Assembly (NCBI RefSeq): GCF_000689395.1
Contig: NZ_HG966617.1
Coordinates: forward strand, 816,753-880,752
DNA length: 64,000 nt
From: Candidatus Phaeomarinobacter ectocarpi
GTDB lineage: Bacteria > Pseudomonadota > Alphaproteobacteria > CGMCC-115125
Reading direction: 5' to 3'
The position numbers were made by a program, and so were the translations under genes. The notes below the pieces were generated by a model. That model was not told the origin of the DNA and searched no databases. It saw nothing but the letters and a program-made list of their open reading frames with translations. Below, piece by piece: positions 47,231 to 52,670 of the stretch (position 1 is its first letter; the number at the start of each line of letters is the position of its first letter).

Positions 47231-47278
47231 ATGCTGAATCCCGCGTATCACGATTGGATTTCGAAAATCTATGGCTGA
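47231..47278 (+). CDS. Possible 15-codon leader peptide of sbtA
   Basis: ATG at 47231 starts a frame coding MLNPAYHDWISKIYG that ends at TGA 47276-47278, overlapping the sbtA start by 8 nt. A weak AAGAG lies ahead. The sbtA ATG has no good ribosome-binding site of its own, so coupling is plausible but unproven. Confidence 0.3.
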   Translation: MLNPAYHDWISKIYG

Positions 47279-48257
47279 CACACTCAACGTCGCGCTCGCC
47301 AACCTGGCCTCGCCCATGGTGCTGTTCTTTGCCCTTGGCTTCCTGGCAGCCCTTGCCCGGTCGGAGCTGTCAGTGCCCGAAGCGGTGGGTAAGGGGCTTG
47401 CCCTCTACCTCATGCTTGCCATCGGCTTCAAAGGCGGCGTATCGGTCGCGGAAGCCGGGTTGAGCACGCAGCTGCTGGTGACCGCACTGGCGGGCATCAT
47501 TCTGGGCTTCATCGTCCCGGTCATTGCACACACGCTGCTGCGCATGACCACACGGCTCGATGACGCGACCCGTGCCGCCGTCGCAGCGCATTACGGCTCC
47601 ATCAGCGTGGTCACCTTCGTGGCCGCGACCGAGGTCGTGACATCCATGGGGCTTGTCTTTGACGGCTACATGGTTGCCGTCATGGCCTTGATGGAAACGC
47701 CAGCCATTATTGCGGGCCTTCTCTTGGCGCGCGGGGCGGTGACATCCTCCAGTCCTGAAACCGCCACCCCCTGGAGCAGCCTTGCCCGAGAGGTCTTTCT
47801 CAATGGCAGTGTGGTGTTGCTCATCGGGGCCTTCATCATCGGCATTGCCACAGGCACCAAGGGAATGCAGTCGATCGGTCCTTTTGTGGAAGCGCCCTTC
47901 AAAGGCATATTGTGCCTGTTCCTGCTGGACATGGGGCTGCTTGCCGCGCGTCGTCTGCGGGAATCCACCGGTCTGACATTTCCGCTCGCGGCCTTTGGCA
48001 TCTACATGCCGCTGATTGCGGCAGTGCTCGGCGTCGTGAGTGGCACATTGCTGGGTCTTGATGTCGGCAGCGTCGCCTTGCTGACCGTGCTATGCGCCAG
48101 CGCCTCATATATTGCGGTTCCGGCGGCAATGCGCATGGCGCTGCCCGAGGCCAATGCGGCTATCTACTTGACATTGTCGATGGCGATCACGTTCCCCTTC
48201 AATCTCGTCATCGGAATCCCACTCTACATATCTGCTGCGCAGATGCTGGCGGGATAA
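47271..48257 (+). CDS. sbtA: Sodium-dependent bicarbonate transporter SbtA
   Basis: Polytopic membrane protein of 328 aa with about ten hydrophobic segments in two inverted halves, as in SbtA. The segments AIGFKGGVSVAE, AAHYGSISVVTFVAATE and ALMETPAIIAGLLLAR carry the family's conserved glycines and serines. In cyanobacteria SbtA imports HCO3- with Na+. The assignment is supported by the next gene, a PII-like protein, the usual SbtB partner. No carboxysome or RuBisCO genes are in the window. Confidence 0.88.
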   Translation: MADTLNVALANLASPMVLFFALGFLAALARSELSVPEAVGKGLALYLMLAIGFKGGVSVAEAGLSTQLLVTALAGIILGFIVPVIAHTLLRMTTRLDDATRAAVAAHYGSISVVTFVAATEVVTSMGLVFDGYMVAVMALMETPAIIAGLLLARGAVTSSSPETATPWSSLAREVFLNGSVVLLIGAFIIGIATGTKGMQSIGPFVEAPFKGILCLFLLDMGLLAARRLRESTGLTFPLAAFGIYMPLIAAVLGVVSGTLLGLDVGSVALLTVLCASASYIAVPAAMRMALPEANAAIYLTLSMAITFPFNLVIGIPLYISAAQMLAG

Positions 48258-48277
48258 CCCATGCAAGGCACAATTCA

Positions 48278-48604
48278 ATGGCTATAGAAACAACCACGTG
48301 CAAACGCATCGAACTGGCAATTGCCAAGGCCCATCTGCGGGTGTTCGCGCGCGTCTTCGAGACGGTCGGGGTAACCGGCTGGACAGCGCTCAAGACAGTG
48401 GGCGGGGCAGGGACATCCGGTGTCTGGCAGGAAGATCAGCTGACCGGGGCAGAAGACCACATCGTGGTCATCGCCATCACAGACGATAAAGGCGCCGACG
48501 AGGTGCTTGCGAAAATCAGCAAGCTCTTTGAGCGCTATCCCGGCATAGTGTCCGTCAGCGAGGCGCAGGTGCTACGCCCAGAACGATTTGCGGGCAAACC
48601 CTGA
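48278..48604 (+). CDS. sbtB: PII-like regulator SbtB
   Basis: 108-aa PII-superfamily protein 20 bp after sbtA. The sequence gives the beta-alpha-beta pattern (CKRIELAIAKAHLRVFARVF), a T-loop-like GGAGTSGVWQEDQL, and DHIVVIAITDDKGADEVL. In cyanobacteria SbtB binds adenine nucleotides and inhibits or tunes SbtA. The ATG at 48278 has AAGG 10 nt upstream. Likely an operon with sbtA. Confidence 0.82.
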   Translation: MAIETTTCKRIELAIAKAHLRVFARVFETVGVTGWTALKTVGGAGTSGVWQEDQLTGAEDHIVVIAITDDKGADEVLAKISKLFERYPGIVSVSEAQVLRPERFAGKP

Positions 48605-48645: not shown

Positions 48646-49404
48646 TTACGCCGCGTGCGTGCCGTTCGCCAATGCGCCGATCACAGGCACCTTGCCCACA
48701 ACCGTGCGTCCCAGGGCAAGGCCTTCTGACACGGCCTCCGTGGTGACCGTTGACACCGTGGGACGTGACAGGTCGAACTGCGCTTCCACAGTCTCGTCAC
48801 GGAACCGGTCAACTTCACCACCGAACTTTTCCGCAATCCGGTACATGCGCTCATTCTTGACGAGGCAGAGCATGTAAATCCGGCTCATGAAACGGTTGCG
48901 GCCAATCGTCAGCATCCGCTTTGTCAGCTCAGATCCAAGGCCGTAACCCTGCATGTTGCTTTCAACGGCAACAGCAGCTGATCCTTCGAGCGGCAGACGC
49001 CATCCGATCGGCGTGAGGATACCCGACGCTGTCACTTCACCGTCCACAACCGCACCAATCACGATGTCGCGGAACCAGTCGATGCGATCCACATAGGTCT
49101 GGATAAAGCGGTTGGTGACCGGACGGCCAAACCGCAACGTGCGATCGTCGCGGTCGAGGCGGCACAAATGGCGGCGCATGGCATCTGCTTCCAGCGGCCA
49201 GATTCGGCGAATAACCGGCTGAGCAATTGCGCGGGGCTTTGAAGGCTTGGCTTCAGCCTTGGGCGCTGCTGTCTTCTTTGATGCTGTCTTTGAAGCTGAT
49301 TTTGCGGCGGTTTTCCGCGCAGTTGGCTTCTTGGCCGCTGTTTTACGGGCAGCTGTTTTCGTCCGCGCTTTGGACTTTGGAGCGCTTTTTCGGGCTGTAG
49401 CCAT
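48646..49404 (-). CDS. GNAT acetyltransferase with histone-H1-like N-terminal tail
   Basis: 252 aa. The first about 60 residues are Lys/Ala/Thr-rich with repeated KTAAKK/RKTAAK units, like H1 or the C-terminal tails of bacterial nucleoid proteins. The following GNAT domain shows the acetyl-CoA loop MQGYGLGSELTKRML. A hydrophobic C-terminal segment ends it. The ATG at 49404 has AAAGGT 8 nt upstream. The tail could bind DNA, RNA or polyphosphate; the target is unknown. Confidence 0.8.
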   Translation of the reverse strand: MATARKSAPKSKARTKTAARKTAAKKPTARKTAAKSASKTASKKTAAPKAEAKPSKPRAIAQPVIRRIWPLEADAMRRHLCRLDRDDRTLRFGRPVTNRFIQTYVDRIDWFRDIVIGAVVDGEVTASGILTPIGWRLPLEGSAAVAVESNMQGYGLGSELTKRMLTIGRNRFMSRIYMLCLVKNERMYRIAEKFGGEVDRFRDETVEAQFDLSRPTVSTVTTEAVSEGLALGRTVVGKVPVIGALANGTHAA

Positions 49405-49494
49405 GAGAATACCTTTCTGGTGCTGACAATGTGTCAGCTGCAATCGGTCGGCGAACCATACACAAAGGCTATGTTGCTCTGCAATATAAGAAGA

Positions 49495-51534
49495 ATGCAG
49501 CCCATCCCAACCCTGATTCGGCCTGACAGACGCTTTTTGTGGTCATTTCGCGTGCCATCACCCCGAAACCTCATCGTGGCGGTGATTGGTTTGGGGGGAG
49601 CACTCATTCTGAATCCTGCATTCGGTGCCGCTCAGGAGAGTGCAGCAGCTCAATCCAGCCCGCCTTGTCCCATATGTGAGATCAGCAGGTCGCTCGCGGG
49701 CGATCTGGCGGACAAGGCAGCAAATCTCAACAGCAAGGCACAGGCAGCACTGGATGCGAGCCGCATCCAGACAGACCCATCCAAAATGAGGTGGCCGGGC
49801 CCGGCACGTCTGGACAGCGGATCAACAATCTGGACGCAGCAGCAAACCGCACTTGCGCATTCGAAGGCGGCAGATCGTTCAAACCAGATAGCAATGGGCG
49901 TTGATCTGTTGGCGCAAGCTGCGGCGCGCGCGGCATCTGCATGTCTGATGGAAAATATCTGCAGCGCATCTCACCGCGTGATCACACCAGCATCCCCTGC
50001 CTGCGCGGTTATTGGCGGCGACCAGATGGTGGACCTTGATCGCGTCCTGTCACCCATCCGCGCGACAACACGGGCACTGGAAACCGAAGCACTCACCTGC
50101 TCGGCCATGCCGTGCCCCGGCGCTGACTGCACGGCACGTCACGTCCTGCTGGAAAGCGCCGCTTTTGCAGATGGCATCTTGAGTGCTGCCGTTGGGGAAA
50201 CATCTGAAACGGTGGTTGAAGCCGTGCCGCCTGACCTCACCCACACCTCGGACGCAGCAACCGTGTCCGTTAGCATGTCCGGCCTTCAAGCCTTGTCGCG
50301 CCTGGCAGAGATCTTCGATACGACCGGTCTTGATCCGCAGGGGACACAGGAGCTGGCCGCAAGCCTGGCCAACATCGAAAAAAATTTGATCAAGCCGGTT
50401 TCGGGGGAAGGGCGTCCTCCGCGCTGGCGGCGCGTCTCGCTCCGCCTGGCACTTGCCGGCATGCGCGATGCGCTGGGCAGTCTGCGTCTGGAAAAGCGTG
50501 TGTCCCAGCCTGCAGCATGGGAGCGGGCAGCAGGCCGCCTTGAAACAGCGATGAAATCTCTCATGCGCCTTGAACGCACAAAGCCGGTAGATGCAGGGGC
50601 GAAAGCGACCCATGCCTTATCCTGTCCCGGCGTTGACCCGCAGCTGACACGAACTCTCTTTCAGTTGCGCCGGGCGATCAATGCGTCCGCCGTTTGCTCT
50701 GTGCGCAGCGGGTGCAGCGCGCAGGAGGCGATTGATCAGGGCACACAGCGGGCAGCTGTGTTGGTTGGCAAGCCGGTGCTGGAGCCAAGGCTTGAGTTGA
50801 TCAAGACCCTTGAAGAAGAAGTGGCGATCAGCCCTGCGGTGCTCAGTGACGCCGGTGTGTCCGCTGAGCCCGTGCCTGGCATTTCATTGACGCGTACGGC
50901 CTACCAGCAGGGCAGCGCGATCGAGCTTGATCTGGAAATCCGCAACAACCGGTGCCTCGCCAATGGTGGTCATGTGGCTCTCGTACCGTTGGATGAAGCG
51001 AACGGTGCGATTGCCATATCGGTTGATCTGCTTGCCGACACAGTCGAGCAGGCGGAAGTTTCAGGCGATCCAAAATCGCGCCTGCTTTTCCGCGCCCCGC
51101 CGGAGGGTTCTTACACCGCGGCTGTCTATGCTGGAGCTGCGGAAGGCGGCGCGCTTCTGGCGGCAACGCCACTGCGTGTCACCAAGCCTGAGCCGCACCG
51201 CTGCGACGGGTGGACCGGCGTCTGGCGGACCGAGTTTGGGCGCCTCGTCACTGTGCAGCACGATGATGAAACGGTTACCGGGTCATATGGCCGGGATCCC
51301 GGTGTGCAGCCAGGTTTTTTGTTTGGCCGTATACGGAATACCCAACTGCGCGGTGTGTGGGTGTCAGAAATCAGTTCCGGCGGCGCGCGCCTGACACTTG
51401 AGGGCGATGGCGTGTTTCGCGGCAGTTGGGGCCTGTCACCGGATCAGATCACAAATGGCGGCCGCTGGTCGGGCGTCTGCATCGCCCAGGCGCCTGACGA
51501 TCAGTCCCCCGAAGGGTCCATGGATGCGAATTAG
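49495..51534 (+). CDS. Large secreted Cys-rich protein of unknown function
   Basis: 679 aa. An N-terminal basic stretch and hydrophobic segment (LIVAVIGLGGALILNPAFG) form a likely signal peptide. Paired cysteines occur (CPIC, CLMENIC, CSAMPCPGADC, CSVRSGC), which suits a disulfide-rich periplasmic or surface protein. A beta-rich domain near 460-565 resembles an Ig-like module. The last about 90 residues (GWTGVWRTEFG, GRWSGVC) look like a lipocalin-type fold. I do not recognise the whole. It meets the XRE gene tail to tail with 4 bp overlap. Confidence 0.75.
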   Translation: MQPIPTLIRPDRRFLWSFRVPSPRNLIVAVIGLGGALILNPAFGAAQESAAAQSSPPCPICEISRSLAGDLADKAANLNSKAQAALDASRIQTDPSKMRWPGPARLDSGSTIWTQQQTALAHSKAADRSNQIAMGVDLLAQAAARAASACLMENICSASHRVITPASPACAVIGGDQMVDLDRVLSPIRATTRALETEALTCSAMPCPGADCTARHVLLESAAFADGILSAAVGETSETVVEAVPPDLTHTSDAATVSVSMSGLQALSRLAEIFDTTGLDPQGTQELAASLANIEKNLIKPVSGEGRPPRWRRVSLRLALAGMRDALGSLRLEKRVSQPAAWERAAGRLETAMKSLMRLERTKPVDAGAKATHALSCPGVDPQLTRTLFQLRRAINASAVCSVRSGCSAQEAIDQGTQRAAVLVGKPVLEPRLELIKTLEEEVAISPAVLSDAGVSAEPVPGISLTRTAYQQGSAIELDLEIRNNRCLANGGHVALVPLDEANGAIAISVDLLADTVEQAEVSGDPKSRLLFRAPPEGSYTAAVYAGAAEGGALLAATPLRVTKPEPHRCDGWTGVWRTEFGRLVTVQHDDETVTGSYGRDPGVQPGFLFGRIRNTQLRGVWVSEISSGGARLTLEGDGVFRGSWGLSPDQITNGGRWSGVCIAQAPDDQSPEGSMDAN

Positions 51535-52295: not shown

Positions 52296-52670
52296 ATGCC
52301 GAACGTAATTGACGCGAGAAGGCCAACGGCCTCAGGGCCCAGACTCACTACGTATAAGTCGCAAAGTAGGCAGTTATCACAACTTGTGCGAGCATTTGTG
52401 TCTCATCAGTTCAATGTGTCTGTGGATGAGCTTGTGTCTGCCCAGCGCGGATCCTCTGCGGCGTGTCACGCCCGCCAGGTTGCCATGTACCTCACCCATG
52501 TGGTCTTCGGGGTCACGCTCACGAGCGTTGGCGATGAGTTTGGCCGCGACAGGTCCACCGTCTCCCATGCCTGCCGCAAGGTGGAATGGTCCCGGGACGA
52601 CGTGGTGTTTGACCAGCTCCTCTCGCGCCTGGAATGGCAACTGCGCGCGGCCACCGGCAAGGAGGTTTAG
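52296..52670 (+). CDS. Stand-alone DnaA domain IV (DNA-binding) protein
   Basis: 124 aa. The core ARQVAMYLTHVVFGVTLTSV plus DEFGRDRSTVSHACRKVE matches the DnaA-box-binding domain IV, including the GRDxxTVxHAC signature; the ATPase and other DnaA domains are absent. Such proteins could recognise DnaA boxes without initiating. GGGGAA lies about 9 nt before the ATG. The downstream DUF6456 gene starts 4 bp after its stop. Confidence 0.9.
   Translation: MPNVIDARRPTASGPRLTTYKSQSRQLSQLVRAFVSHQFNVSVDELVSAQRGSSAACHARQVAMYLTHVVFGVTLTSVGDEFGRDRSTVSHACRKVEWSRDDVVFDQLLSRLEWQLRAATGKEV

Follow-up and report, generated by a model that had tools for sequence, protein, structure and literature searches.

A Pat-like GNAT protein with a lysine-rich tail and a PhaR-type promoter site in Candidatus Phaeomarinobacter ectocarpi

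Gene layout and the GNAT domain

The window analysed here is a stretch of 64,000 nucleotides (64 kb) from the genome of Candidatus Phaeomarinobacter ectocarpi. An open reading frame of 252 codons on its negative strand, 48646-49404 (-), runs from an ATG at 49404 to a stop at 48646 and has the translation MATARKSAPKSKARTKTAARKTAAKKPTARKTAAKS...AKPSKPRAIAQPVIRRIWPLEADAMRRH... In the 252-aa protein, a Lys/Ala/Thr tail of 60 residues is followed by a GNAT domain and then by a C-terminal helix. The original prediction, a GNAT acetyltransferase fused to about 60 Lys/Ala/Thr-rich residues, is borne out by this reading frame, by a PF00583 match above the cut-off and by the composition of the tail. The features of the gene and its translation start are as follows.

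48646..49404 (-), tailed GNAT gene (ORF and translation; orthologues in 4/4 genomes of the genus)
49412..49418 (-), Shine-Dalgarno sequence AGAAAGG for the ATG ahead of the tail, conserved in the genus
49225..49404 (-), Lys/Ala/Thr-rich H1-like tail, aa 1-60 (composition, weak HC2 match, AlphaFold2, purifying selection)
48772..49215 (-), GNAT domain of Pat type, about aa 64-211 (Pfam PF00583, PDB profile matches, Foldseek)
48979..48981 (-), codon of S142, at the position of the Pat catalytic-base Glu (alignment)
48934..48951 (-), acetyl-CoA binding loop Q152-G-Y-G155-L-G157 (13-sequence alignment)
48691..48756 (-), C-terminal helix, about aa 217-238 (AlphaFold2 model and alignment with 4ava)

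The genus sample consists of four genomes, the window's own (G000) and G001, G002 and G003; no others were found in the order. The nearest named relative is a MAG labelled 'Candidatus Phaeomarinobacter sp.', with 93% identity over the GNAT part. Adjoining the gene and convergent with it is a gene for an SbtA-type bicarbonate transporter (Sbt_1; 47271-48604 (+)); a short ORF of PII/SbtB-like appearance comes after it, and the gene order is the same in G001. Elsewhere in the window, 52296-52670 (+) encodes a short stand-alone DnaA C-terminal (DNA-binding) domain protein of 124 aa.

The GNAT domain matches PF00583 with 26.6 bits, above the Pfam cut-off, and by profile and fold comparison is closest to the Pat protein-lysine acetyltransferases. 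In a profile search of the PDB the top match was mycobacterial Pat (4ava, E=2e-14), followed by S. lividans Pat and then E. coli PatZ. An AlphaFold2 model, built from 13 input sequences, has pLDDT values mostly of about 75-94 in the GNAT domain; its top Foldseek match was 4nxy (the GNAT domain of S. lividans Pat, E=9e-12), with 9it0 also among the best. Next in similarity, among 385 evenly sampled alphaproteobacterial genomes, come the GNAT ends of Pat proteins of about 900 aa. With the GNAT part of mycobacterial Pat (Rv0998 / MSMEG_5458) the protein shares the acetyl-CoA loop and a profile match that extends through the C-terminal helix, which aligns with the C-terminal extension of 4ava; unlike that enzyme, to which it is about 20% identical, it has an H1-like tail in place of a cNMP-binding domain. 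S. lividans Pat and E. coli PatZ supply the best Foldseek matches through their GNAT domains, whereas the window protein stands alone, lacking the acyl-CoA-synthetase-like domain. No Pfam match to an additional regulatory domain (ACS-like, cNMP, NADP or ACT) was found, and only the tail precedes the GNAT domain.

The acetyl-CoA loop (Q/R-x-x-G-x-G/A) is intact, and Q152, G155 and G157 do not vary across the 13 aligned sequences. Pat enzymes have a Glu that has been proposed as general base (E809 in S. enterica Pat, E234/E235 in MsPat); its position, as read from the alignment column of the 'AEFAV/AEIAF' strand, is occupied by Ser (S142) in 4/4 tailed proteins vs Glu in 64/64 homologues outside the genus. 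Since the Glu is lost exactly in the tailed proteins, acetyltransferase activity cannot be assumed for them. Neither is Ser in place of Glu proof of inactivity, because Pat enzymes in which that Glu was mutated retain partial activity, and GNATs without it are known, some of them reportedly relying on Ser or on other means (PMC8556138). E140, two residues before S142 and present in 4/4 tailed proteins, could stand in for the lost Glu. By analogy with the Pat fold, the domain may be a lysine acyltransferase. A second, distant Pat-like GNAT is encoded in the same genome (3227892-3228329 (-)); it keeps the Glu (DKAEIAVTV) and has no tail, and this distant paralogue was set aside as a catalytic relative.

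A lysine-rich tail confined to one genus

Residues 1-60 include 18 Ala, 15 Lys, 8 Thr, 6 Ser, 5 Arg, 5 Pro and one acidic residue. The stretch is predicted to be disordered (pLDDT 42-58), and its repeats are variants of KTAAK/KPTARK, not KPAA. Its match to the Pfam HC2 (histone H1-like) profile is weak (E=6e-4) and falls under the curated cut-off, so membership of HC2 was rejected; the similarity to chlamydial Hc2 (PF07382) is a weak one of composition, and no homology is claimed. It is nevertheless the sole HC2-like stretch at E<=1e-3 in the whole 3.4-Mb genome, and with a single match genome-wide HC2-like lysine tails cannot be regarded as a general habit of this genome.

Comparison within the genus indicates that the tail is translated as part of the protein. 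A Shine-Dalgarno sequence (AAAGG) and ATG precede the tail in 4/4 genomes, and the same ATG context (MATA[RK]KSAPKSKAR...) is found in 3/4. Tail length varies from about 52 aa in G003 to about 118 aa in G001, and the indels are in frame. In comparisons of G000 with G002, G003 and G001, pN/pS was 0.05, 0.23 and 0.33 for the tail and 0.02, 0.06 and 0.13 for the GNAT part, these being simple counts from few, partly saturated sequences with an uncertain tail alignment. The codon counts thus point to purifying selection on the tail, laxer than that on the GNAT part. It is the kept Shine-Dalgarno sequence and ATG, the in-frame length changes and the purifying selection that argue for translation of the tail; a mis-set start codon was therefore rejected, and a start downstream of the tail, considered in the original prediction, is opposed by the same comparative evidence. 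By analogy, the tail would bind polyanions (DNA, perhaps polyphosphate).

Outside the genus, 64 homologues of the GNAT family were inspected: 11 from GTDB r220 contigs, 24 loci from the 385-genome sample and 29 from the order of Azospirillum, in which 72/82 genomes are positive for the family. The tail is absent in 64/64, and the highest Lys content of any 30-aa stretch in their in-frame extensions is 13% vs 30-40% inside the genus. On these comparisons the fusion is confined to Ca. Phaeomarinobacter among the homologues inspected, so the family would be the older part and the tail a later addition. The original prediction had named orthologues lacking the tail as counting against the fusion; all those inspected outside the genus lack it, and none inside does (4/4 tailed). 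The GNAT family itself is widespread in Alphaproteobacteria and apparently undescribed. Two of the tail-less homologues (in G054 and G038) sit divergently beside a TerB/DnaJ (DjlA-like) gene.

PhaR-type operator and PHB context

The region upstream of the tailed GNAT gene contains two features.

49472..49486 (both strands), PhaR-type operator TGTTGCTCTGCAATA (TTGC-AGA-GCAA palindrome), identical in 4/4 genomes of the genus
49455..49484 (-), possible sigma-70-type promoter TTGCAG-18-TATGGT, read by eye and overlapping the operator

An automatic promoter scan prefers TTGGGA-16-TATATT at 49510-49483; under either placement the PhaR-type site is in the promoter region. The upstream regions of the four genus genomes share TATATTGCAGAGCAACAT at 49472-49486, and much of the surroundings has diverged. 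The shared site is similar to operators of PhaR, a repressor that responds to the storage bioplastic poly-3-hydroxybutyrate (PHB). The operator of PhaR has been defined as TGCRNYGCASMA by footprinting in B. diazoefficiens (PMC6201568), and the S. meliloti PhaR site has a YGCRNYGCR core with AT-rich arms (PMC12542648). A 12/12 match to TGCRNYGCASMA is present within 300 bp upstream in 24/34 homologues outside the genus, and an 11/12 match in 3 more; these loci are drawn from many families but are partly close relatives and so not independent. Controls gave 1/34 downstream, 0/34 inside the gene and 9/1700 dinucleotide shuffles (0.5%). With 29 Azospirillaceae loci added, many of them near-duplicates, 11 or 12 of 12 positions matched in 56/64 homologues (500-bp window).

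A palindromic matrix built solely from the sites of the outside-genus homologues was used to score every position of the 64-kb window. The top score, 15.3, was that of 49472-49486, just under the weakest training site (16.4); the runner-up (14.4) falls within an ORF close to the end of the window. The site matches 10/12 of the published consensus, both mismatches being towards A, and is degenerate in the centre (AGA vs the expected RNY). TTGCN3GCAA occurs 70 times genome-wide vs 68 in a reversed control. With no enrichment the genome-wide count was rejected as evidence by itself, and only position, conservation and family comparison count.

The operator also overlaps the possible start (ATG TTG CTC TGC AAT ATA) of a divergent, unannotated ORF of about 690 aa (49471-51534 (+); MLLCNI...), which has no Pfam match and is conserved in G001. 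Part of the conservation of the site could therefore be coding, but a DNA signal is favoured because all wobble positions are conserved. The divergent gene may be the PhaR target, or a second one. Judged from these sequence features, PhaR may bind at 49472-49486.

Genomic context is in keeping with such a link. PhaR was detected in 231/385 sampled genomes vs 34/35 of those with a stand-alone GNAT counted at about 80 bits or more (Fisher p=1.6e-7, kinship ignored), and the sole PhaR-less genome among the 35 is 78%-complete. The genome of Ca. P. ectocarpi encodes PhaR (PF07879, 107 bits; locus at 2798227) and PhaC. It has only one Phasin_2 protein, at 886060-886428 (+), outside the window, which starts MAAAKKTAKKTTTRRRP (longer: MAAAKKTAKKTTTRRRPAQQKTRRPAS), a Lys/Arg-rich tail behind a good Shine-Dalgarno sequence. 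Two perfect PhaR sites, TGCACCGCACAA and TGCATCGCACAA, lie about 190 and 140 bp upstream of it, and a tail of this kind, with a pair of PhaR sites, recurs in the phasin genes of G001 and G002. In this genus, then, two proteins presumed from their upstream sites to belong to the PHB regulon carry N-terminal Lys/Arg-rich tails.

The locus resembles the alphaproteobacterial PhaR (AniA) regulon in having a PhaR-type operator in its promoter, and the genome also encodes PhaR, PhaC and a phasin. A difference is that the PhaR literature examined, namely the Bradyrhizobium and Sinorhizobium PhaR studies, mentions no GNAT of this kind; blr2367, listed as an 'acetyltransferase' among B. diazoefficiens PhaR genes, is part of an exoZ operon.

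Possible roles of the tailed GNAT

The reading preferred here, with middling confidence, is that of a PHB-regulon Pat-like acyltransferase with a genus-specific polyanion-binding tail, working or merely sitting at the granule-nucleoid interface. The gene would be the representative, in Ca. Phaeomarinobacter, of a PhaR-controlled family of short Pat-like GNATs found in Alphaproteobacteria. As PHB builds up, PhaR would be drawn off its operators and phasin and GNAT would be made together, as expected from the known regulon. Family members in general would probably acylate lysines of metabolic proteins, much as Pat acts on acyl-CoA synthetases, with acetyl-CoA or a different acyl-CoA from the PHB cycle as donor. 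In the genus, phasin and GNAT would both have gained N-terminal Lys/Arg-rich, H1-like polyanion-binding tails. PhaF and AlgP have H1-like tails with which PHA and polyP granules are organised and, it is thought, held to the nucleoid (PMC9239181), and the tail described here would likewise put the GNAT at the nucleoid-granule interface. Pseudomonas PhaF (a phasin) and AlgP offer the likeness of a basic, disordered H1-like tail on a storage-granule protein, the granule role of the window protein being putative; the window tail differs in being N-terminal and KTAAK-like rather than KPAA, and in having a GNAT rather than a phasin helix as its partner domain. Once there, the GNAT could acylate nearby basic proteins and tails, including itself and phasin, and so loosen the tether; or else, its Glu base being lost, it could serve mainly as an acetyl-CoA-binding tether or sensor.

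An active lysine acetyltransferase, tethered to DNA and modifying nucleoid proteins or its own tail without any special link to PHB, is an unlikely alternative, though the Pat-type fold, the intact acetyl-CoA loop, the purifying selection on the domain and the many lysines on offer in the tail would suit it, as would the partial activity of Glu-less Pat and the use of Ser or other means by some GNATs (PMC8556138). It leaves unexplained both the PhaR operators upstream of most homologues and the restriction to PhaR-bearing genomes, and the Glu has been lost precisely in the tailed lineage. Local or self-acetylation, as put forward in the original prediction, could still occur, given that the H1-like tail fused to the Pat-type GNAT is genuine and conserved; the lost Glu, the single-genus fusion and promoters that point to PHB alter the picture. 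For the polyphosphate-linked targets suggested at the same time, nothing specific was found and the link was rejected; the guess was near in kind (AlgP, PhaF), and the evidence favours PHB granules.

Rather improbable, too, is a pseudoenzyme acting as a tether: no longer catalytic, its GNAT fold would do no more than bind CoA or protein partners, and the tail would attach it to DNA or granules. The Ser found in 4/4 tailed vs the Glu in 64/64 untailed proteins would fit it, as would a tail of the same kind on phasin, yet the acetyl-CoA loop residues are invariant, the domain is strongly constrained and E140, present in all four tailed proteins, might serve instead. A functionless tail, arisen as a near-neutral expansion of low complexity, might be suggested by its about two-fold length variation within the genus and its absence elsewhere, but is very unlikely given its retention in 4/4 genomes with pN/pS of 0.05-0.33, its preserved basic character and its standing as the sole HC2-like stretch of the genome.

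Returning to the preferred reading of a PHB-regulon acyltransferase, Pat-like GNATs, H1-like tails and the PhaR regulon were each already known separately. In the literature searched, with partial coverage, no description was found of a PhaR-regulon GNAT or a PhaR-controlled Pat-like GNAT family, nor of a GNAT-H1 tail fusion or the tailed, Ser-for-Glu version. Acetyl-CoA feeds both PHB storage and protein acetylation; as far as that literature shows, a dedicated acetyltransferase had not previously been placed in the PhaR regulon, and the promoter evidence points to one such enzyme in many genera. These data suggest that the GNAT family connects carbon storage with protein acetylation, and in this genus with the chromosome as well. 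Gain of the tail and loss of the catalytic Glu in the same lineage, whose phasin has a like tail, amount to a natural experiment, and the tailed version is relevant to the question of how storage granules come to be placed on bacterial chromosomes. A far-reaching form of the idea can be put forward as a long shot: a PhaR-controlled lysine acyltransferase family would couple PHB storage to protein acylation throughout Alphaproteobacteria, and in Ca. Phaeomarinobacter the tailed Ser-for-Glu enzyme, sited where PHB granules meet the chromosome, would acylate H1-like tails (its own and that of phasin), making granule tethering responsive to acetyl-CoA or 3-hydroxybutyryl-CoA.

Further TTGCAGNGCAA sites occur in the genome, e.g. 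in upstream regions near 1194102 and 2099089, and are possible PhaR targets.
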